DNA from: a virus
IMG/VR virus record: IMGVR_UViG_3300017708_000870
Span: 1 to 41,411 of that record
Strand: one strand, 5' to 3'
DNA: 41,411 bases
Part shown: in pieces, positions 6,128 to 38,732 of the stretch
Layout of the letters: each line of letters begins with the position of its first letter
How positions within the stretch are numbered: position 1 is the stretch's first letter
Position numbers and translations under genes: made by a program
The notes under the pieces: generated by a model
The model's database searches: none
What the model was told of the DNA's origin: nothing
Seen by the model: only the letters and a program-made list of their open reading frames with translations

Positions 6128-6684
6128 ACATTTTTGTTTTAGATAATGATCCAATCAAGGCTGCGGAATACTCATGCGACAAGCATGTGGTGAAAATGAT
6201 CGTGGAGTCATGTCAAATGCTTTCGTCTGCACACCGTGTTCTTGACGGTTCTGAATGGACAGACTTCTCTAAGGGTAAGAAACCTCGCCGCATTAAACGG
6301 TGGAGACTTCAAGAACCTAGAGAAAGTTTGTTATGGAAAGCATCTTTCGTGGGTCATCCATGCACACAATGGATTATGCAATCAAAAGAAAACTATCGTT
6401 GGTTAGCGAGACACGCTGTTGCGTTGACCGAAGAATATACTATTCGATATGCGAAAAAACATTCGTGTGAGTCTTTATGTCGTTTCTTTGAAGATACATA
6501 TCCAGATAATCTATTATCAATTCACCAAACCCAGTTTGCACAAGCGATGCCTGAAGAATATAAAGTCGTAGGTGATGCTGTGCAAGCATATCGTAATTAT
6601 TATCATGGAGAGAAAGCATATTTTGCAAAATGGAAAACAAGCACTCCCCACTGGTGGAATGGAGTAATGTTACAGCATGATTAA
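6124..6684 (+). CDS. Conserved phage protein of unknown function (MNIFVLD family)
   Basis: 186 aa. The opening MNIFVLDNDPIKAAEYSCDK followed by HVVKMIVES is a pattern I recognise from many phage hypothetical proteins; later conserved parts are HPCTQWIMQSKENYRWL, TQFAQAMPEEYK and AYRNYYHGEKAYFAKWK. Conserved Cys, His and Trp residues suggest a folded enzyme or nucleic-acid-binding protein, but I know no proven function. It is inserted between genes 47 and 46 with four- and eight-base overlaps, so it is translated with the nuclease subunits. A role in DNA metabolism is plausible from position only. Confidence 0.7.
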   Translation: MNIFVLDNDPIKAAEYSCDKHVVKMIVESCQMLSSAHRVLDGSEWTDFSKGKKPRRIKRWRLQEPRESLLWKASFVGHPCTQWIMQSKENYRWLARHAVALTEEYTIRYAKKHSCESLCRFFEDTYPDNLLSIHQTQFAQAMPEEYKVVGDAVQAYRNYYHGEKAYFAKWKTSTPHWWNGVMLQHD

Positions 6685-8392
6685 GTTTACAAAGATTCGT
6701 TGGAAGAACTTTCTTTCAACGGGAAATACATTTACAGAAGTTGATTTGTGTCGTCATGGACTTACCCTAATTACAGGTGAGAATGGTGCTGGTAAGTCAA
6801 CAATTCTGGATGCATTGACATATTCTTTGTTTGGTAAATCATTTCGTGGTATCACCGTGTCCACTCTCGTAAATAGTATTAACGAAAAAGACTCTATAGT
6901 TGAGATAGAATTTACCATCGGTCCCAAGTCATATCTCGTTCGACGAGGACAAAAACCAAAAGTGTTCGACATCTATGTTGACGGTGAGATGTTACCACAA
7001 GAGGCTAAAGCGAAAGACTACCAGAGAATCTTAGAAGAGCAGATTTTAAAAATGTCTTATAAGTCTTTTTGTCAGATTGTCGTGTTAGGTTCATCAAACT
7101 ATGTTCCATTTATGCAGTTGTCTGCGACGGATAGAAGAGACATCGTTGAAAATCTATTAGACATTAACATATTCACTGTTATGAATATCATGGTGAAAGG
7201 TAAAGTGTCTGCTGTTCGTGAGATTATCAAGGACAAAGAAAACAATATTGATATCCTGAAGACAAAAATTGAAAGTAAAAAGGAATACATCGACAAGATT
7301 AAAGATCAGGCAAAAACTAATCTCGATAGTATTGATGATGAGATTACACAAAAGCGTCAGGAGATAGAAGACGCAAAAGATAGAATAAAGGATCTAGAGG
7401 ATAAGCATTTAGACTTAACCAGTGAGTTGTTTGATCATAATACAAACAAAGTTAAGTTGTCTGACTTGTCGCTTGAGAGAAGAGAGATAAACTCTAAAAT
7501 TTCTGACATCAATGAAGAAGTGGACTTCTTTTCAAAGAACGATCAATGTCCAGTGTGCCGACAAGATATAGGTGACAGTCACAAAAACCATATTGTCACA
7601 AACCAAAAATCAAGACAGGCACAGTATGAAGTCAATCTGCAAAAGTTGATAGAGAACATGGATGAAACGAAAAAGAGGCTAGACGATCAAGATGAAATAC
7701 AGCAGACGATCAGCGAGGTATTAAGTGAAAAGCAATATGAGCAAGCGAAGATAGATTCTTGTCAAACATATATTGACGGGATGCTCAAGAGAAAGCAACA
7801 AAATCAGAGCCAAGAGAATACGCTCGATGATGACATTGTAGAAATGAAAAAGTTTATTCATGATGGTATGGAACAAACAAAAGAAAAAGAAAGATTCATT
7901 GTTGATGAAAGTCACCTTGAGATTATCCAAAGTCTTCTAAAAGATACAGGAATCAAAGCAAGAATCATCAAACAGTATCTTCCTGTTATGAATAATTTGA
8001 TCAATAAGTACCTGAAGGCGATGGACTTCTTTTGCAAGTTTACACTCGATGAAAACTTCAACGAAGCAATCAAAAGCAGGTATCGTGATGACTTTTCGTA
8101 CTACAATCTAAGTGAAGGTGAAAGACTTCGTATCGATCTTGCTCTGCTGTTTGCGTGGAGAGAAGTTGCTAAACTGAAGAACAGTGTAAGTTGTAACTTG
8201 TTGATTCTTGATGAAGTTTTTGATTCAAGTCTTGACGCAGCGGGAACAGAAGAGTTTATGAAACTACTCAAGACATTTACTAGTGGTAACTCAAATATCT
8301 TCGTCATCAGTCATAAGACAGATCACCTCGCAGATAAGTTTCACAATCACTTTGTGTTTATGAAAAAGAACAACTTCAGTAGGATCAAGTGA
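6677..8392 (+). CDS. 46: gp46 recombination nuclease ATPase (Rad50/SbcC-like)
   Basis: 571 aa, close to T4 gp46 (560 aa). Order of parts: Walker A GENGAGKST (34-42), a long coiled coil (about 170-430), a zinc hook CPVC (291-294) in its middle, the ABC signature LSEGERLRIDLAL (478-490), Walker B LLILDEVFDSSLD (508-520) and the His switch SHK (545-547). The ATPase controls gp47 and clamps DNA through the hook. It overlaps its upstream and downstream genes by a few bases (TGATG junction at 8390-8394). Confidence 0.95.
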   Translation: MIKFTKIRWKNFLSTGNTFTEVDLCRHGLTLITGENGAGKSTILDALTYSLFGKSFRGITVSTLVNSINEKDSIVEIEFTIGPKSYLVRRGQKPKVFDIYVDGEMLPQEAKAKDYQRILEEQILKMSYKSFCQIVVLGSSNYVPFMQLSATDRRDIVENLLDINIFTVMNIMVKGKVSAVREIIKDKENNIDILKTKIESKKEYIDKIKDQAKTNLDSIDDEITQKRQEIEDAKDRIKDLEDKHLDLTSELFDHNTNKVKLSDLSLERREINSKISDINEEVDFFSKNDQCPVCRQDIGDSHKNHIVTNQKSRQAQYEVNLQKLIENMDETKKRLDDQDEIQQTISEVLSEKQYEQAKIDSCQTYIDGMLKRKQQNQSQENTLDDDIVEMKKFIHDGMEQTKEKERFIVDESHLEIIQSLLKDTGIKARIIKQYLPVMNNLINKYLKAMDFFCKFTLDENFNEAIKSRYRDDFSYYNLSEGERLRIDLALLFAWREVAKLKNSVSCNLLILDEVFDSSLDAAGTEEFMKLLKTFTSGNSNIFVISHKTDHLADKFHNHFVFMKKNNFSRIK

Positions 8393-9975
8393 TGTATGAG
8401 AAGAACACCAGTCTTATAGACTCAGACATTAACTGTAAGTTTGAGGACTTACTGTGCATGACTCCTGTTGAATTTCGATCATGGGTTTTGGATATGAAAA
8501 AACTTGTGATTGATATCTGGGATAATCAAAATATTCCACCAAGACAAGGCAAAACAGAAGATGAAATCATAAAACAATTTAATCAAATGATTTCATATCC
8601 AATTCATAAGTTTACACATTCGGATGAGTTGTCTTCTATACCTGATGATGTGATTGTCAACAAAAGTCGTTTAGGTTCAGAGGCAGACCAGTGGTTTGCG
8701 AACATGTATAAGACTCGAATTAATTACTCAGAAAAAGATAATGGTTATTCAATCTACGATCTTTTCGCCTTAGATAAATTTGAAGAAAAGATGTTCAAGG
8801 GTTGCATGAGACACTTTCGCAGAGATTCGATGTATCTTCATGCATTGACTTGTTTTAAAAACAATGTAAAACCAGCATTAGTTTCAGTTGATGATGGAAT
8901 CGAATTTGTAAATACTTTCCACGAAAATCAAAGTATAATCTTCAACGGATACAACTTCTTCCTCGAACAAGTTGCGTTGAAGGAAGGTATGAATACTGGG
9001 TACAATCAAGTAGATCAATCTAATACGTTGTCGTTAACCAGAGAGCAAGTTTTAGAATTAAAAAATAATGGACGATTAGAATACCGTCATTACTCTACTT
9101 TTGACATAGATAATATGCCAGAAGAAAAAGTTTATAATGTTCGCATATACAAAGAGGGAAACCGTGTATTCCCAAAGGGTTTTGCAGCGTTTCGAATCGG
9201 TTACATCCAACCAGCAGTTAACTTCCCCCCAATGACAGCAAAGTATCTTTATGAGAGGTTTACAGATGATATCAAAGATCAGGAAGTTATTAAGATCTAT
9301 GATCCATCCGCAGGATGGGGAGGTAGGATTCTCGGAGCGATGTCCGTTCGTGATGACCGAAGTATTCATTACATCGGCACTGACCCTAACGTTGATAACT
9401 TTACTCCAGATGGCACCAACAGATACTCCGATATTGCTGAGTTCTACAACACCAAAACCAACAGAGGAAACACATTTTTTTGCGGACCTGTTAACACTTA
9501 TGAAATCTATTGTTTGGGGTCAGAGGTAATTCAGTTTGATGAGGGTTTCCAGAAACATAAAGGAGATCTTGATTTAGTGTTTACTTCACCACCATATTTC
9601 AATCGTGAGGCATATAGTGAAAACGAGAATCAATCGTATAAAAAGTTTGGTTCGTCTTACGAATCATGGAGAGATGGATTTCTTCGTCCTACATTAGAGA
9701 CAGCCGTAAATTGGTTAAAATCAAATCGTTATTTACTATGGAATATCGCCGATGTAAAAGTAGGAGAAAAGTTTTTGCCTCTAGAAAAAGATAGTATAGA
9801 TATACTCGAATCGTTAGGTGTCGAATATAAATATACAATGAAGATGGCACTCGAAGGAATGCCTGGTCAAAATAGGTTGGACGAAAATGGAAAACCTAAG
9901 TGTAAAAACTATTGCAATATAAACGGAACGTATGTAAAATATGAACCAGTCCTCGTTTTTCTTAAGAAAGGTTAA
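8392..9975 (+). CDS. DNA amino-methyltransferase (N6-adenine/N4-cytosine type)
   Basis: 527 aa from the ATG at 8392. The C-terminal half holds the catalytic motifs of amino-methyltransferases: a SAM-binding motif IYDPSAGWGGRILGA (around 303-317) and the catalytic TSPPYF (around 398-403, the DPPY-type motif IV). A tryptophan/arginine-rich segment (ESWRDGFLRPTL) and LLWNIADVKVGE follow as in orphan phage methyltransferases. The N-terminal about 280 residues resemble no domain I know and may be a target-recognition or accessory part. No restriction nuclease is nearby, so it is probably an orphan enzyme that protects or marks phage DNA. Base specificity cannot be read from the sequence. Confidence 0.85.
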   Translation: MYEKNTSLIDSDINCKFEDLLCMTPVEFRSWVLDMKKLVIDIWDNQNIPPRQGKTEDEIIKQFNQMISYPIHKFTHSDELSSIPDDVIVNKSRLGSEADQWFANMYKTRINYSEKDNGYSIYDLFALDKFEEKMFKGCMRHFRRDSMYLHALTCFKNNVKPALVSVDDGIEFVNTFHENQSIIFNGYNFFLEQVALKEGMNTGYNQVDQSNTLSLTREQVLELKNNGRLEYRHYSTFDIDNMPEEKVYNVRIYKEGNRVFPKGFAAFRIGYIQPAVNFPPMTAKYLYERFTDDIKDQEVIKIYDPSAGWGGRILGAMSVRDDRSIHYIGTDPNVDNFTPDGTNRYSDIAEFYNTKTNRGNTFFCGPVNTYEIYCLGSEVIQFDEGFQKHKGDLDLVFTSPPYFNREAYSENENQSYKKFGSSYESWRDGFLRPTLETAVNWLKSNRYLLWNIADVKVGEKFLPLEKDSIDILESLGVEYKYTMKMALEGMPGQNRLDENGKPKCKNYCNINGTYVKYEPVLVFLKKG

Positions 9976-9977
9976 TC

Positions 9978-11072
9978 ATGAGATTAGTAAAATTAGACTA
10001 CATTTGGTTGGATGGTAATGATGCTGTTGGATTAAGATCCAAGTCAAGAAACGTTAACATTCCAACAGAAAACCCTCAAGTTCCACCTAGCATCGACAAC
10101 GTTGTTGAGCATGCACCAGAGTGGTCATATGATGGATCAAGCACCAATCAAGCAGTCACCGAATCTAGTGATCTTGTGCTGAAACCAGTAAAGGTTTACA
10201 AGAATCCTTTTGTTGCACCCAATGCACAGATTCCTGCGTTCCTCGTTTTATGTGAGGTATATGACTTAGATGGTAATCCACACGAAACAAACAATCGCTC
10301 GACTCTTCGAGATGCGTTTGCAAACAATAAAGATTCACACAACACTATCTTCTCTGTAGAGCAAGAGTATGTTCTTTGGAATCCAAAAGAGAACTGGCCT
10401 GCTGAGTGGGGTGACCACGGTAACGAAGTCGCACCACAAGGAAATTATTACTGTGGTGTCGGTGGTGATCTTGCACCACTTCGTTTTGTTGTTGAGCAAC
10501 ACGCTCAGGCTTGTGTGCAAACAGGATTGTTCTACGAAGGTAGTAACGCAGAGGTTATGCTGTCTCAGTGGGAGTATCAGTTGGGACCAATGGATGCTAT
10601 TGATGCAGCAGACAGTCTGTGGATCTCGCGTTATATCTTGCAACGTGTTGCAGAGAGTCGCGGTATTGGTGTGAACTATGATCCTAAACCAGTCGAAGGT
10701 GATTGGAATGGATCGGGCGCACATATCAACTTCTCGACAGATGCTATGAGAAACGGAGATATGTCACACATGTACACTGTATGTGAAAGATTGTCTGAGG
10801 GACATGCTGAACTCATGTCAAGTGGTGCTTATGGTGTAGGTAACGAAAGGAGACTTACGGGTAAGCACGAAACATCATCTATTGAAGAGTTTTCATATGG
10901 GGTAAGTGATCGATCTGCATCCATTCGTATTCCACCAGTTACGGTGAAGAATGACGGTGCAGGTTATTTGGAAGATCGTAGACCATCAGCGAACATGGAC
11001 CCATACCTTGCTTACGCTGCAATTCTTAACACTATTAAGGTCGAGGAAGATGCCGAAGTTATTACCGCTTAA
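9978..11072 (+). CDS. glnII: Type II glutamine synthetase
   Basis: 364 aa, the full length of the eukaryote-type (GSII) family. It makes glutamine from glutamate, ammonia and ATP in the cytoplasm. Family signatures in order: WSYDGSSTNQA (49-59), SVEQEYVLW with E128 and E130 for metal binding, YCGVG (158-162), EVMLSQWEYQLGP (192-204), NGSGAHINFST (244-254), GNERRLTGKHETSS (288-301), SIRIP (315-319) and EDRRPSANMDPY (332-343). All the active-site regions look intact, so the enzyme is predicted to work. A ribosome site AAAGG precedes the ATG. It lies between DNA-metabolism genes, not in a nitrogen operon. Phage-carried GSII is rare in my knowledge; it may supply glutamine for nucleotides and amino sugars. 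Confidence 0.93.
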   Translation: MRLVKLDYIWLDGNDAVGLRSKSRNVNIPTENPQVPPSIDNVVEHAPEWSYDGSSTNQAVTESSDLVLKPVKVYKNPFVAPNAQIPAFLVLCEVYDLDGNPHETNNRSTLRDAFANNKDSHNTIFSVEQEYVLWNPKENWPAEWGDHGNEVAPQGNYYCGVGGDLAPLRFVVEQHAQACVQTGLFYEGSNAEVMLSQWEYQLGPMDAIDAADSLWISRYILQRVAESRGIGVNYDPKPVEGDWNGSGAHINFSTDAMRNGDMSHMYTVCERLSEGHAELMSSGAYGVGNERRLTGKHETSSIEEFSYGVSDRSASIRIPPVTVKNDGAGYLEDRRPSANMDPYLAYAAILNTIKVEEDAEVITA

Positions 11073-11082
11073 ATATAAGAAC

Positions 11083-11403
11083 ATGAAGTCGGAGTCATAT
11101 GAGACTTATCTAACAAAGTCGTTAGAGAGTCTCGACTCCAACTTCAATGTTAAAGTTTACAAGACAGCAGGTGATCATGATAAGTGGTCATCATTTGAAC
11201 GAGGAACTGATCTTCGAATTCAAATGCGTTGGAAAAAAGAAGTCATCGACGAATTTGTTGTAGAAAAACAATTCTGGTATAAATCAAATCGTGATAAAGA
11301 AGATCGTATGTTTATGCGAGATCACGCACATGTTCACTATGACGAATTACACAGAGTGTATAAATTATCCAATGATAGAAAGAAGAACAAAAATGCCGTT
11401 TGA
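11083..11403 (+). CDS. Small protein of unknown function
   Basis: 106 aa from the ATG at 11083; an alternative ATG at 11050 would add 11 residues but sits inside the glutamine synthetase gene. The protein is highly charged with many aromatic residues (KWSSFERGTDLRIQMRWKKE, then VVEKQFWYKSN). The end is lysine-rich. No domain is recognised. It overlaps the next gene by 11 bp. Confidence 0.6.
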   Translation: MKSESYETYLTKSLESLDSNFNVKVYKTAGDHDKWSSFERGTDLRIQMRWKKEVIDEFVVEKQFWYKSNRDKEDRMFMRDHAHVHYDELHRVYKLSNDRKKNKNAV

Positions 11404-11920
11404 TCTGACTGCATTATTAACTTACGCTTGGGGTGGTGGAGGATGGGTTGATTCTTATGTTAGGCTTTCTGCTATTCAAGCGGGAAACGTTAATGATGCT
11501 GCAACAGTAAAACAATTCATCGATCAATATATTATACCTAATGGATTCACTAAGACTGAGGCGATTCAAATTTTTGATTTGATGAGTCAACTCAACAAAA
11601 GGCGGAGAGCAGAAAAGAGAATAGACTCTTTCGATTACGTAAGTAAGAGATCTGTGACACGACCCGAAAGAAGAGGCAGAAGACGTTACACTAGAGACTT
11701 TAGCAGAAATAGGCTGGAGGTAAAGGGTAACTTCAAAATGTTTGATGAATTGGGAAATTACACTGTCTATAATAAAGGTGATGTGGTATACTACGAAGGT
11801 AAATCGTATATCGCAACAAGTCGTGCGGTAGGTCATGTTCCCGAATCAACACACCCCGATAGTAAGTGGCGTCCAGTGGATAATCCAGACAACACAATCG
11901 ACGGTGGTGATACTTTCTGA
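11393..11920 (+). CDS. Protein with C-terminal carbohydrate-binding-like module
   Basis: 175 aa. The start ATG follows a purine-rich AGAAAGAAGAA. The N-terminal 75 residues are a helical region of unknown type with a glycine run (YAWGGGGWVDSY); a very basic linker follows (RPERRGRRRYTRD, 90-102). The C-terminus (about 121-162: GNYTVYNKGDVVYYEGKSYI, then PESTHPDSKWRPV) has the layout of the small CBM5/12 chitin-binding-like module, with G-D-V-V-x-Y, G-K-x-Y-x-A and a closing W. Such modules occur in phage tail and lysis proteins. It is oddly placed among replication genes, so it may be a virion protein or a lysis helper. The binding function is inferred from the pattern. Confidence 0.6.
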   Translation: MPFDLTALLTYAWGGGGWVDSYVRLSAIQAGNVNDAATVKQFIDQYIIPNGFTKTEAIQIFDLMSQLNKRRRAEKRIDSFDYVSKRSVTRPERRGRRRYTRDFSRNRLEVKGNFKMFDELGNYTVYNKGDVVYYEGKSYIATSRAVGHVPESTHPDSKWRPVDNPDNTIDGGDTF

Positions 11921-11926
11921 AAGAGG
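11921..11926 (+). promoter_or_regulatory. Ribosome binding site pointing to an ATT start for RNase H
   Basis: AAGAGG lies immediately after the upstream stop codon and seven bases before ATT at 11934, the ideal spacing. The only ATG/GTG/TTG-type candidates nearby are GTGs at 11904 and 11907, which lie before this site and have no good ribosome site of their own. Confidence 0.5.
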
Positions 11927-11933
11927 CAACAAA

Positions 11934-12770
11934 ATTATTCTTCTTGATAATAGTCAAGTTCTCATCTCAAATATTTTTTCTGTAGCAAAACAAGAGCAAA
12001 AAATTGATGAGAACTTTATACGTCACCTTGTGCTAAACACATACCGTATGGTTAAGACTAAGTTTGGTGACACTTATGGTGATCTAGTAATTTGTGATGA
12101 TACATCTAATTGCTGGAGAAAAGACTTCTTCGAACACTACAAAGCAAATCGCAAAAAGAGTCAGGACAAGTCACCATTCGACTGGTCTGAGGTTTTCGGT
12201 GTTATGAATATCATTCGGAATGAAGTCAGAGAAAACTTTCCATACCGATGCATGTCAATTGACAGATTAGAGGCAGATGATATCATTGCAGTCTTATCTC
12301 GCAGACATCACGAAGATGAAAAAATTCTTATTGTGTCTAACGATAAAGACTTTCAACAATTACAGAGATATAAAAATGTCGAACAATATAGTTTGATGAA
12401 GAAGCAATTTTTGGTTTGCGAAGATCCCGAAAGATTCTTGATTGAGCATATCGTAAAGGGCGATTCGTCTGACGGGATTCCAAATGTCTTGTCGGACGGA
12501 GATACTTTTTTGGTAGAAGGTAAGCGTCAAAAGCCTTGTAGCAAAAAAAGAGTTGAAGAAGTAATCAATGATCCATATAATGAATCGTGGAAAGACAACT
12601 TCGAACGTAACCAAACTATGATTGATATGACAAAGATTCCAGAAGAGTATGAATCATTAGTATTAGAGGAGTTTAACAATGATATGGTTATCACTGATCG
12701 TTCAAAACTCCTAGATTATTTTATTAAAAACAAGTTGAGAAACTTGTTACCAAATATAGGAGACTTTTAA
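11934..12770 (+). CDS. rnh: RNase H / 5'-3' flap nuclease (T4 Rnh-like)
   Basis: 278 aa from ATT 11934, or 288 aa from GTG 11904; T4 RNase H is 305 aa. It removes RNA primers and flaps from lagging-strand fragments. FEN-type motifs: LLDNSQ near the start, VICDDTSNCWRKDFFEHYKA with the YKANR block, RLEADDIIAVL, VSNDKDFQQL and GDSSDGIPNV. The set of acidic metal ligands is complete. The family usually begins just before LLDxxQ, which fits the rare ATT start preceded by AAGAGG (11921-11926). The alternative GTG would create a 17 bp overlap with the upstream gene. It is followed by the clamp genes. Confidence 0.9.
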   Translation: MILLDNSQVLISNIFSVAKQEQKIDENFIRHLVLNTYRMVKTKFGDTYGDLVICDDTSNCWRKDFFEHYKANRKKSQDKSPFDWSEVFGVMNIIRNEVRENFPYRCMSIDRLEADDIIAVLSRRHHEDEKILIVSNDKDFQQLQRYKNVEQYSLMKKQFLVCEDPERFLIEHIVKGDSSDGIPNVLSDGDTFLVEGKRQKPCSKKRVEEVINDPYNESWKDNFERNQTMIDMTKIPEEYESLVLEEFNNDMVITDRSKLLDYFIKNKLRNLLPNIGDF

Positions 12771-12774
12771 AGAG

Positions 12775-12945
12775 ATGTCTGAGAATGAAAAGAAAGAAGA
12801 AAAGGTTCAAAAAGAGTTTAGAACTAAGTCGAAAAAGAGAAAACAAAAAAGATCTAGTCGTCACAACTCTCGTAAAATTATGAAAGACTTAAAACAAGGT
12901 TATTTCGATCCAGAAGATTTCACGGATCGAATGGAAGGTGTATAA
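12775..12945 (+). CDS. Small Lys/Arg-rich protein
   Basis: 56 aa, not matched to a named family. An N-terminal charged stretch (NEKKEEKVQKEF) is followed by a dense basic region (KSKKRKQKRSSRHNSRK) and an end reading GYFDPEDFTDRMEGV. Its stop overlaps the gp45 start (TAATG), indicating coupled translation with the sliding clamp. The basic nature suggests nucleic-acid or polymerase contact, which is only a guess. Confidence 0.6.
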   Translation: MSENEKKEEKVQKEFRTKSKKRKQKRSSRHNSRKIMKDLKQGYFDPEDFTDRMEGV

Positions 12946-13631
12946 TGAGTAAAACAAAACTGTCCAAAGAAACACTCGCTATTCTTAAAAACTATTCTCA
13001 CATCAACTCTAATCTGTTGGTCAAAGAGGGTAACGTAATCAATACGATTTCCCCTGCAAAGAATATCGTTTCGGAATCTGTCGTTAACGAAAACTTTGAA
13101 GTAGAGTTTGGAATTTGGGACTTGAGTAAACTTCTAGGAACAATTAGTTTGTTCGAAGATCCAGAGTTTGAGTTCGGTGAAAAATCCATGACCATCTCTG
13201 GAAAAAATGGTGGTAAAGTTTCTTACTACTACTCAGAACCAAGACTTCTTACTACCCTTACACGAGAAGTTAAGATGCCTGAACCAGTGATTAGTTTTAA
13301 ACTCACCGAGAGTATTTTTGAATCCATCCAGAGATCTGCTTCGGTTCTTCAACTTCCCGATCTCTGCATTAAGTCAAGCAATGATGGAATGATTGAACTT
13401 GTTGCACTGGACAAAAAGACTCCAACAACAAATAGTTACACTGTCGAAGTTGGAACTAACCCTAAACCAGGCTCTACTTTTTCTTTCTATCTTAAGAATG
13501 AGAACTTGAAACTTTTGTCAGGTGACTATACAGTAGACGTATGTTCTCAAACTGTGACACGTTTCACACACACGGAGCAGGACACTACGTATTATATTGC
13601 ACAGGAAAGTGACTCATCGTATCATGACTAA
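12945..13631 (+). CDS. 45: gp45 sliding clamp
   Basis: 228 aa, the same size as T4 gp45. The clamp rings DNA, tethers the polymerase, and also activates late transcription with gp55. The sequence shows the family start (KLSKETLAILKNYSHINSNL), the pattern FGIWDLSKLLGTISLFEDP, then GKVSYYYSEP, and two repeated beta-alpha units as expected for the clamp fold. The order gp45-gp44-gp62-regA downstream strongly supports it. It overlaps gp44 by eight bases. Confidence 0.93.
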   Translation: MSKTKLSKETLAILKNYSHINSNLLVKEGNVINTISPAKNIVSESVVNENFEVEFGIWDLSKLLGTISLFEDPEFEFGEKSMTISGKNGGKVSYYYSEPRLLTTLTREVKMPEPVISFKLTESIFESIQRSASVLQLPDLCIKSSNDGMIELVALDKKTPTTNSYTVEVGTNPKPGSTFSFYLKNENLKLLSGDYTVDVCSQTVTRFTHTEQDTTYYIAQESDSSYHD

Positions 13632-14568
13632 TCAAGAAACTTATTTGTGGGTAGAGAAGTATCGACCCCAAACTGTTGACGAATGTATTCTCCCAGAGAA
13701 TATCAAAGACACATTCAAAGACATGATTGTTTCAGGCGAATCTCAAAACTTGCTGCTCAGTGGTGGTGCTGGTTGTGGTAAAACTACAATCGCAAAGGCT
13801 ATGTGTAATGAGTTGGGATGTGATCACATTCTTATCAACTGTTCAGAGAACGGGAACATCGATACTCTTCGGACCACCATCCGCGACTTCGCTAGTTCCG
13901 TTTCTCTGGACGGTAACAAGAAGGTTTGTATTCTAGATGAATTTGATTATTCTAACGCACAAAGTATTCAGCCTGCTCTCAGAGGAGCGATTGAGGAATT
14001 TGCTGATAATTGTCGCTTTATATTGACCTGTAATTATAAGAATCGAATCATTAAACCAATTCATTCTCGCTGCACAAACGTTGAGTTTCAGATTCCATCA
14101 AAGGAGAAACCAAAGTTAGCATCGAAGTTTTTGGAAAGGGTGAAGTTCATTCTCGATACGGAGGGTGTGGAGTACGAGGAGCGAGTTCTCGCACACCTGA
14201 TTATGAAATATTTCCCAGACTTCAGACGAGTGGTGAACGAACTTCAACGCTATTCTGTTTCGGGAAAAATCGACGTTGGTATTCTCTCTCAGATTGGTGA
14301 GATTGATGTAAAAGATCTGATGTCACGTATGAAAGAAAAAGATTTCAGCGGTGTTCGAAAGTGGGTTGTGTCAAATCTTGATAATGATCAGTCGGAACTT
14401 TTCAGAAAGATTTATGACTCACTTTATGATTATCTAGCACCAGAAAGTATTCCAATTGTTATACTTATTCTTGCAGATTATCAACACAAAGCAGCGTTTG
14501 TTGCTGACGCAGAGATAAATATGACAGCATGTTTAGTTCAAATTATGATGGAGGCACAATTCAAATGA
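13624..14568 (+). CDS. 44: gp44 clamp-loader ATPase
   Basis: 314 aa (T4 gp44: 319 aa). It is the AAA+ subunit that, with gp62, opens and loads the gp45 clamp. Motifs: WVEKYRPQTVDECILP at the N-terminus, Walker A GGAGCGKTT (47-55), Walker B ILDEFD (103-108), sensor TCNYKNRI and the arginine finger SRC (148-150). The ATG at 13624 lies within the end of gp45. The stop overlaps the next gene's ATG (ATGA). Confidence 0.95.
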   Translation: MTNQETYLWVEKYRPQTVDECILPENIKDTFKDMIVSGESQNLLLSGGAGCGKTTIAKAMCNELGCDHILINCSENGNIDTLRTTIRDFASSVSLDGNKKVCILDEFDYSNAQSIQPALRGAIEEFADNCRFILTCNYKNRIIKPIHSRCTNVEFQIPSKEKPKLASKFLERVKFILDTEGVEYEERVLAHLIMKYFPDFRRVVNELQRYSVSGKIDVGILSQIGEIDVKDLMSRMKEKDFSGVRKWVVSNLDNDQSELFRKIYDSLYDYLAPESIPIVILILADYQHKAAFVADAEINMTACLVQIMMEAQFK

Positions 14569-37450: not shown

Positions 37451-37575
37451 AAGTAGAGATTCGTAAAGAAGAATTTGTTTTAGTGTCTGAACTCAAACGA
37501 ATGAATGGATTAACTCCAGTGTTGGAGATTACTGTAAAACGTAAAATTAGTAATAACAGATATAGGATCTCATGA
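37447..37575 (+). CDS. Very small protein (42 aa) of unknown function
   Basis: A short open frame fits exactly between its neighbours: ATG in the upstream stop and TGA overlapping the next ATG. The peptide (KVEIRKEEFVLVSELKRMNG, then TPVLEITVKRKISNNRYRIS) is basic and beta-rich. The coupled overlaps favour a real gene. Confidence 0.55.
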   Translation: MKVEIRKEEFVLVSELKRMNGLTPVLEITVKRKISNNRYRIS

Positions 37576-38732
37576 TTGAACGGTTTTCTACATTCAAAAC
37601 CCAAAACTTTAGAGATGGTAATGCGAACATAGTCTCAAACAATTATCCTTTGGGTACACGTTTTATAATTGTTAACGAACAATCTACGTTTGAACACGAA
37701 ACAGAATTTACACTTACTGAATTAAGCGAAGATGCAGAAGTTATAAAATTTGGCAAGAGTGAGCATTCTTTGTCATTTGTTAATCTATTAAGTAATGTCG
37801 GAAAACAATACAAGGTGTATGGAAATGCGTCATTACTTAATAGTATGTTTGATGTTGTCGAAGAAAAGATTATCGAAGAAAAAACTATCGTACCTATTAA
37901 AGATGAAGTTAAAGTTGATGGTAAAAAAGGTGAACGTGGTCTTCGTGGTTTGATTGGTGAACAGGGTCCAGCAGGTTCGATAGGTATGGTCGGACCAAAG
38001 GGAGATCGTGGCGAACATGGTTTGCAAGGTATTCAGGGTGAACAAGGTACACAAGGTGAACGTGGACTCATCGGTGAGCAAGGTGAACAGGGTACACAAG
38101 GTATTCAAGGTGAGCGTGGAGAGCAGGGAGAAAAAGGTGACCTCGGTGAGCAAGGTATTCAAGGTTTCCGTGGTGAGCAAGGACCGAAAGGCGACCAAGG
38201 CGAAAAAGGAAATCGCGGAGAGCAAGGCATTCAAGGTGAAAGAGGTTTGCTTGGAGAACAGGGAAGACAAGGTATTCAAGGCGAACGTGGGACAGATGGT
38301 TTACAGGGGGTAAAAGGTGATCAAGGTGAACGAGGCGAACAAGGTCAAGTCGGTCCACAAGGTTTGCAGGGTCAACAAGGTCCGAAAGGTGACAGAGGAG
38401 AAAGAGGTAAAAAGGGAGACAAGGGAGAAAAAGGAGATCCCGCACCTCCATTCAAAATCCGTGAGGGTAATGGCTTAAAAATAAACGAACAAAGAAATGA
38501 ATTATGGTTAGATCCTAAAACATTTCCTCCTGTTCCCATAGGTCAACTAGGTGGTGCTGTCATCGGTGGTGGTGGTAGTAATACAGGTGTAAAGCAAAAC
38601 AATAAGAAGATTATGGATACAGCGAGATTTATAAACTTCGATAGCGGATTCACTGCTGAAAGAAGAGGTGGTGAAGGAAAAGGGACCGCTACAATTTCGA
38701 TAAATAACATAGACGGTGGTACTTTCGTTTAA
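37572..38732 (+). CDS. Collagen-like fibre protein
   Basis: 386 aa. The N-terminal about 116 residues form a non-repeat domain (attachment to the virion is likely), followed by an unbroken Gly-X-Y region from G117 to G288 (58 triplets), then a C-terminal head (about 290-386) with GQLGGAVIGGGGS and a final MDTARFINFDSGF part. Frequent triplets are GEQ, GIQ, GER and GPK. Collagen-like fibres form trimers and are common in phage tails. Ten Gly-X-Lys triplets put lysine in the Y position, where collagen lysines are hydroxylated and glycosylated in other systems. It starts at the preceding stop. Confidence 0.92.
   Translation: MIERFSTFKTQNFRDGNANIVSNNYPLGTRFIIVNEQSTFEHETEFTLTELSEDAEVIKFGKSEHSLSFVNLLSNVGKQYKVYGNASLLNSMFDVVEEKIIEEKTIVPIKDEVKVDGKKGERGLRGLIGEQGPAGSIGMVGPKGDRGEHGLQGIQGEQGTQGERGLIGEQGEQGTQGIQGERGEQGEKGDLGEQGIQGFRGEQGPKGDQGEKGNRGEQGIQGERGLLGEQGRQGIQGERGTDGLQGVKGDQGERGEQGQVGPQGLQGQQGPKGDRGERGKKGDKGEKGDPAPPFKIREGNGLKINEQRNELWLDPKTFPPVPIGQLGGAVIGGGGSNTGVKQNNKKIMDTARFINFDSGFTAERRGGEGKGTATISINNIDGGTFV
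37920..38441 (+). repeat. Gly-X-Y collagen repeat (58 triplets)
   Basis: Each codon triplet starts with a glycine codon from residue 117 to 288 without a break. The DNA therefore has a 9-bp period, with recurring GGTGAACAAGGT and GGTATTCAAGGT units. Long open frames on the other strand and in other phases here are by-products of this period. Confidence 0.95.

Follow-up and report, generated by a model that had tools for sequence, protein, structure and literature searches.

The window examined here, a linear IMG/VR record of 41,411 bases, encodes a type II glutamine synthetase (GSII) within the replication block of an uncultivated T4-like phage. We consider it probable that this glutamine synthetase (GS) is a working GSII, carried as an accessory gene in a fixed slot of T4-like phages and supplying glutamine in step with the replication module. 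The analysis shows intact active-site residues, the predicted fold, purifying selection, a phage-only phylogenetic group, a slot with empty sites, and a domain fusion in relatives. During infection, the enzyme would most likely make glutamine independently of the controls that act on the host's type I enzyme (GSI).

A type II glutamine synthetase in a T4-like block

The GS open reading frame (Table 1) begins with ATG and has no internal stops. A reading of the sequence alone had described a complete GSII with its signature regions in order, and all five quoted motifs were located in the full 364-residue frame: WSYDGSS (residues 49–55), EQEY (128–131), NGSGAHINF (244–252), GKHETSS (295–301), and DRRPSANMDPY (333–343). 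The best NCBIfam family is GlnII (345.5 bits, E = 3e-103), against 86 bits for type I GlnA and 53 bits for type III. The GlnII score does not reach the 500-bit equivalog cut-off of NF041605, and the protein is best described as a GSII homolog that is not filed as a GlnII equivalog. With Pfam, Gln-synt_C matched at 75 bits (cut-off 24) and Gln-synt_N at 30.2 bits, just under its cut-off of 33.4. Such sub-cut-off scores for GlnII and Gln-synt_N are consistent with divergence and also with altered substrate use. A PDB search retrieved plant, bacterial, fungal, and animal GSII structures, including a plant GSII at E = 2.6e-88. The AlphaFold2 model (pLDDT 90.3) had Streptomyces coelicolor GlnII (4bax) as its top Foldseek match (TM 0.87/0.92), and the predicted fold and the length agree with those of GSII (beta-grasp plus catalytic barrel, about 330–375 residues).

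Table 1. Features of the GS slot and its flanks in the window.
Feature	Coordinates	Strand	Family or basis
gp46 (SbcC-like), T4-like block	6677..8392	+	
MTase-like gene, marks the slot; SPPY and DPSxGWGGR motifs	8389..9975	+	N6_N4_Mtase
AAGG-type ribosome-binding site (AGAAAGGTTAATC) ahead of the GS start	9965..9977	+	sequence reading
Type II glutamine synthetase (GSII), 364 aa, no N-terminal thioredoxin-like domain	9978..11072	+	ORF, profiles, fold
Small conserved protein, cluster 11, just 3' of GS; likely start ATG near 11084, not 10951	11084..11403	+	
Small protein, cluster 7; weak tail-fibre-like match	11291..11920	+	
T4 RNase H / 5'-3' exonuclease, right border of the slot	11835..12770	+	PF02739, PF09293
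gp45 sliding clamp and gp44 clamp loader, T4-like block	12945..14568	+	

Catalytic residues were compared in an alignment of 125 GS sequences. The window GS retains the metal ligands (E128, E130, E192, E199, H249, and E332), the arginines that contact phosphate, ATP, and glutamate (R292, R312, R317, and R334), and the ammonium-site residues (D52, S55, and E298). The tested positions do not vary across 36 phage sequences from the T4-like context, three from huge phages, and every cellular or eukaryotic sequence; in the other phage sequences, one truncated entry has gaps at D52 and S55. Against the two closest distinct relatives (L003 and L004), dN/dS was 0.069 and 0.066, values of about 0.07 that point to a gene maintained under strong purifying selection. 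Active-site conservation and dN/dS together argue against an inactive pseudo-enzyme.

In order, the surrounding block comprises tail tube, uvsW, late sigma factor, gp47, a pyrimidine-dimer glycosylase-like gene, gp46, a methyltransferase (MTase)-like gene, GS, two small genes, RNase H, gp45, gp44, gp62, and regA. The flanking MTase-like, RNase H, gp46, gp45, and gp44 genes bear out the earlier placement of GS between a DNA methyltransferase and RNase H in a T4-like core. The MTase stop (TAA, 9973–9975) lies 2 nt upstream of the GS start codon, a spacing that suggests translational coupling. The MTase-like frame scores 21.4 bits with N6_N4_Mtase, under the Pfam cut-off, and its product is 58–92% identical across 13 aligned relatives. 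This conservation is striking while the GS proteins of the same relatives are often only about 50% identical. Among phage records there was no full-length match to the MTase, and no record covered 80% of it. When gp46 is compared, cyanophages come closest among isolates (about 44% identity). The phage is apparently marine, a view drawn from its relatives and this kinship with cyanophages rather than from a sample record. A frame at 37572–38732, close to the right end of the window, encodes a long collagen-like G-x-y repeat.

A fixed slot with variable occupancy

An MTase profile scan of IMG/VR returned 367 relatives, and the best 80 of these 367 loci were read, 76 of them being informative. 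GS lies directly 3' of the MTase in 36 of the 76 (from a 63-nt overlap to a 12-nt gap), and in 16 of these 36 it is fused to a thioredoxin-like domain. In the other 40, GS is missing and the MTase is followed by the small genes, a different inserted gene, or RNase H, which rules out GS and the MTase as an obligate pair. The sample is skewed toward the neighbors of the window and includes near-duplicates, so that the 47% of loci with GS is not a population estimate. Mapped on the MTase tree, GS presence requires about 10 gains or losses, at least seven of them forced by supported branches. One pair of loci preserves a clean empty site. As far as the MTase end, L301 and L322 share 92% identity; L322 then has no thioredoxin-GS gene at all, and similarity returns beyond the missing gene. 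As compared across these loci, GS behaves as an accessory gene, gained and lost whole at one fixed slot 3' of the MTase-like gene. T4-like flanks, variable presence (36 with and 40 without, of 76), and a clean empty site are the marks of an auxiliary metabolic gene.

Relatives are plentiful in metagenomic viruses. Scanning IMG/VR with the window protein gave 55 GS loci, and a profile scan gave at least 593 stretches encoding a GS relative. By ORF clustering, many loci share the order gp46-MTase-GS-small genes-RNase H-gp45-gp44; 43 GS loci, the window counted, have a member of the MTase family, and the rest occupy several quite different genome contexts. In one unrelated phage context (L162, L164, L166, and L189), one or two glutaredoxin-like genes come after GS (PF00462 in L166), which is a further association of GS with redox proteins. 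A 135-kb relative (L267-L273, the record of L142) carries a plain GS along with an IMP dehydrogenase/GMP reductase-type gene, ThyX, dUTPase, and a RimK/glutathione-synthetase-like ATP-grasp ligase. Across 50,697 phage records, only four clear GSII matches were found, all in huge-phage metagenome records and about 43% identical; other matches were 24–32% identical and, where annotated, were type I glutamine synthetase or plain glnA. The sequence-only reading had called the gene an unusual metabolic gene. That description holds for phage records, from which it is almost absent, but not for IMG/VR with its several hundred relatives, and viral glnA has already been described (PMC10721903, PMC12619734, PMC13288924).

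Proposed glutamine supply during infection and its alternatives

Under the reading we favor, the phage GSII would convert glutamate, NH4+, and ATP to glutamine, and its slot 3' of the MTase-like gene would have it expressed together with the replication module. Adenylylation affects GSI, not GSII, and GSII has no counterpart of the bacterial GSI adenylylation region. For that reason, the phage enzyme would stand outside host GSI control and could keep fixing ammonium into glutamine whatever those controls do. Host enzymes would then draw on this glutamine for the purines, CTP, and amino acids needed in phage replication. Glutamine amidotransferase domains of class I or class II were absent from the window and from 16 related contigs, all of which may be incomplete; the search controls were positive in 14 of 14 genomes. 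Any glutamine sink must therefore be a host enzyme.

The same result leaves unsupported the earlier proposal that GS serves a downstream UDP-GlcNAc-using island, since no glutamine-using amidotransferase that could tie the two together was found in either the window or the 16 contigs. The island itself is a long sugar and glycan region (15670–36985) with many glycosyltransferase-like frames, a SIS-domain protein, two cytidylyltransferases, NeuB, a DegT aminotransferase, and epimerase/dehydrogenase-like genes, a content that suggests phage synthesis of a nonulosonic-acid surface sugar.

Two other functions were weighed. The protein could be a GS-fold ligase acting on an acceptor other than ammonium, such as an amine, a peptide, a nucleotide, or a surface sugar, for instance in a modification of phage DNA or surface that would match the neighboring MTase. 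The GS superfamily does include ligases with other substrates (PuuA-like enzymes and amidoligases), the score falls below the GlnII equivalog cut-off, and the fixed neighbor is an MTase-like gene. We nevertheless think this unlikely: D52, S55, E298, and all tested glutamate-binding residues are invariant, as in GSII proper, the MTase does without GS in 40 of 76 loci, and other phage lineages carry GS in unrelated contexts. Alternatively, the product could be a metabolic signal and not a supply of building blocks, with conversion of glutamate to glutamine shifting the glutamine/2-oxoglutarate balance and thereby switching host nitrogen-stress signaling. The lack of a phage-encoded glutamine-using amidotransferase in the window and 16 related contigs would suit such a role, and viruses with PII-type regulators have been described (PMC8115048). 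Yet a PII gene was not recognized in the window, and plain supply fits equally well, with nothing favoring signaling, so that we give this idea little credence as well. Glutamine supply by a working GSII remains our preferred account.

Phylogeny, thioredoxin-like fusions, and known systems

FastTree (125 rows) and IQ-TREE (60 rows) agreed: the GS of the window belongs to a set made up only of phage sequences, separate from the cellular and eukaryotic enzymes. In the IQ-TREE analysis, this set holds 43 rows on a branch with 95/84 support, and maize and yeast GSII cluster with the cellular enzymes; the root is a midpoint only, and "group" here means one side of a branch. The earlier label "eukaryote-type" gives way to a phage-only group separate from every eukaryotic or cellular GSII sampled, those of planctomycetes among them, and trees with bacterial/archaeal and planctomycete GSII rule out a eukaryotic or planctomycete origin. 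The first reading had also weighed the gene against membership in a well-known, common phage GS group; the group that the window GS joins is a common phage one, but it is not well described. Other phage GSII proteins, such as those of L166 and L059, cluster with Bacteroidota/Balneolota GSII, away from the window group, from which it follows that phages probably gained GSII more than once.

That adjacency to Bacteroidota GSII, and the occurrence of GSII in planctomycetes (12 of 149 genomes sampled), could be taken to favor a recent capture from a planctomycete or other bacterial host with no special phage adaptation, but we regard such a capture as very improbable and already disfavored, given that the window GS is deeply nested among phage sequences, with no cellular row inside the group, and that its slot is common to its relatives. 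Two frames at the left end of the window offer a possible hint about the host, as their ends resemble those often seen in secreted proteins of planctomycetes: one (604–1281) has a PEP-CTERM-like C-terminus (IPTPSVLSLMGVAILARSRKRYT), and the other (2–625) ends in a dockerin-like FGDLLMVLN...AAWG repeat. The PEP-CTERM-like frame had no match in 294 planctomycete genomes, in a search run without a positive control.

In 23 GS loci, the enzyme is extended at its N-terminus by a segment bearing CGWC and QCGTP motifs and a P/Q-rich linker. Both motifs are invariant in 17 of 17 aligned extensions, and all 17 match a PHROG thioredoxin family (best E = 1.9e-6). Pfam Thioredoxin reached 18 bits, under its cut-off, in one of two extensions tested, and PDB thioredoxins matched at E of about 1e-3; we call the domain thioredoxin-like on the basis of these motifs and weak profile matches. 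A fusion model searched against a viral fold library gave only partial amidoligase-like and thioredoxin-like matches, a result of limited value given that the N-terminal part is modeled less well (mean pLDDT 79). The domain-only scan found 29 fused loci and 26 loci in which the C-terminal partner differs, which marks the domain as a modular unit. The CGWC domain with its P/Q-rich linker occurs without GS, at other genome positions, in L203, L208, L210, L211, L218-L220, L222, L228, L231, L234-L236, and L239-L251. Phage records contained no match to the domain.

This fused form, with the CxxC domain in the same frame, belongs to sister phages and not to the window, where no frame matched the domain and a hidden copy is ruled out. 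The window's close relatives lack it too, while L144, which branches closest to the quartet that includes the window (99/96), has the fusion; more than one gain or loss of the domain has thus occurred. Where present, the CxxC domain would probably keep the enzyme reduced and stable, a redox protection that the window's lineage does without. Precedent for redox support of GSII comes from tobacco, where thioredoxin m overexpression raised the activity and stability of GS2 without a demonstration of direct redox activation (PMC8219043).

Set beside solved GSII enzymes from S. coelicolor (4bax), maize (2d3a), and yeast (3fky), the window GS shares fold, length, motif order, and the tested catalytic residues. 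It differs in being about 40–44% identical to them, in its phage-only branch, in scoring below the NCBIfam GlnII cut-off, and in insertions such as VPPSIDNVVEHAP. T4-like cyanophages, the closest isolates by gp46, have that gene and T4-like replication genes in common with the window, but no isolate record has a GSII of this type or a full-length match to its MTase. Virus-encoded glnA has been reported from metagenomes in SAR86 viruses (PMC10721903), moraphages of Bacteroidota (PMC12619734), jumbo phages (PMC13037316), and estuarine viruses (PMC13288924). In the accessible parts of these four papers, GS is treated as an auxiliary metabolic gene, as here, but neither the GS type, nor a T4-like slot, nor a thioredoxin fusion is named. 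GSII of Bacteroidota-linked phages falls in a different part of the present tree from the window GS. We found no paper on a phage-only GSII group, a fixed T4-like slot, or a thioredoxin-GSII fusion, with most subscription journals and preprints outside the search. Viral glnA is already known, then; what appears to be new, within the literature searched, is the fixed slot together with the thioredoxin-like fusion, and the window GS is a new member of a phage GSII family having plain and fused forms.

The Global Ocean Sampling survey (Yooseph et al. 2007) found marine type II GS to be abundant and diverse, an abundance described as surprising and unexplained in the accessible part of the paper (PMC1821046). 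The same part places more than 90% of GSII on bacterial scaffolds and reports a viral GSII group near mimivirus and eukaryotes; the T4-like phage group of the present analysis is not described there. A phage-only GSII toggling at a slot in the replication block could explain part of that abundance in a testable way. Only tentatively do we extend this to a phage-specific GSII that toggles at its slot in plain and thioredoxin-fused forms, makes up a noticeable share of the unexplained ocean GSII, is redox-protected, and lies outside GSI control. Close relatives with and without GS provide a system for studying nitrogen assimilation in infected cells, and the thioredoxin-GSII fusions connect these phages to the work on plant thioredoxin m and GS2.
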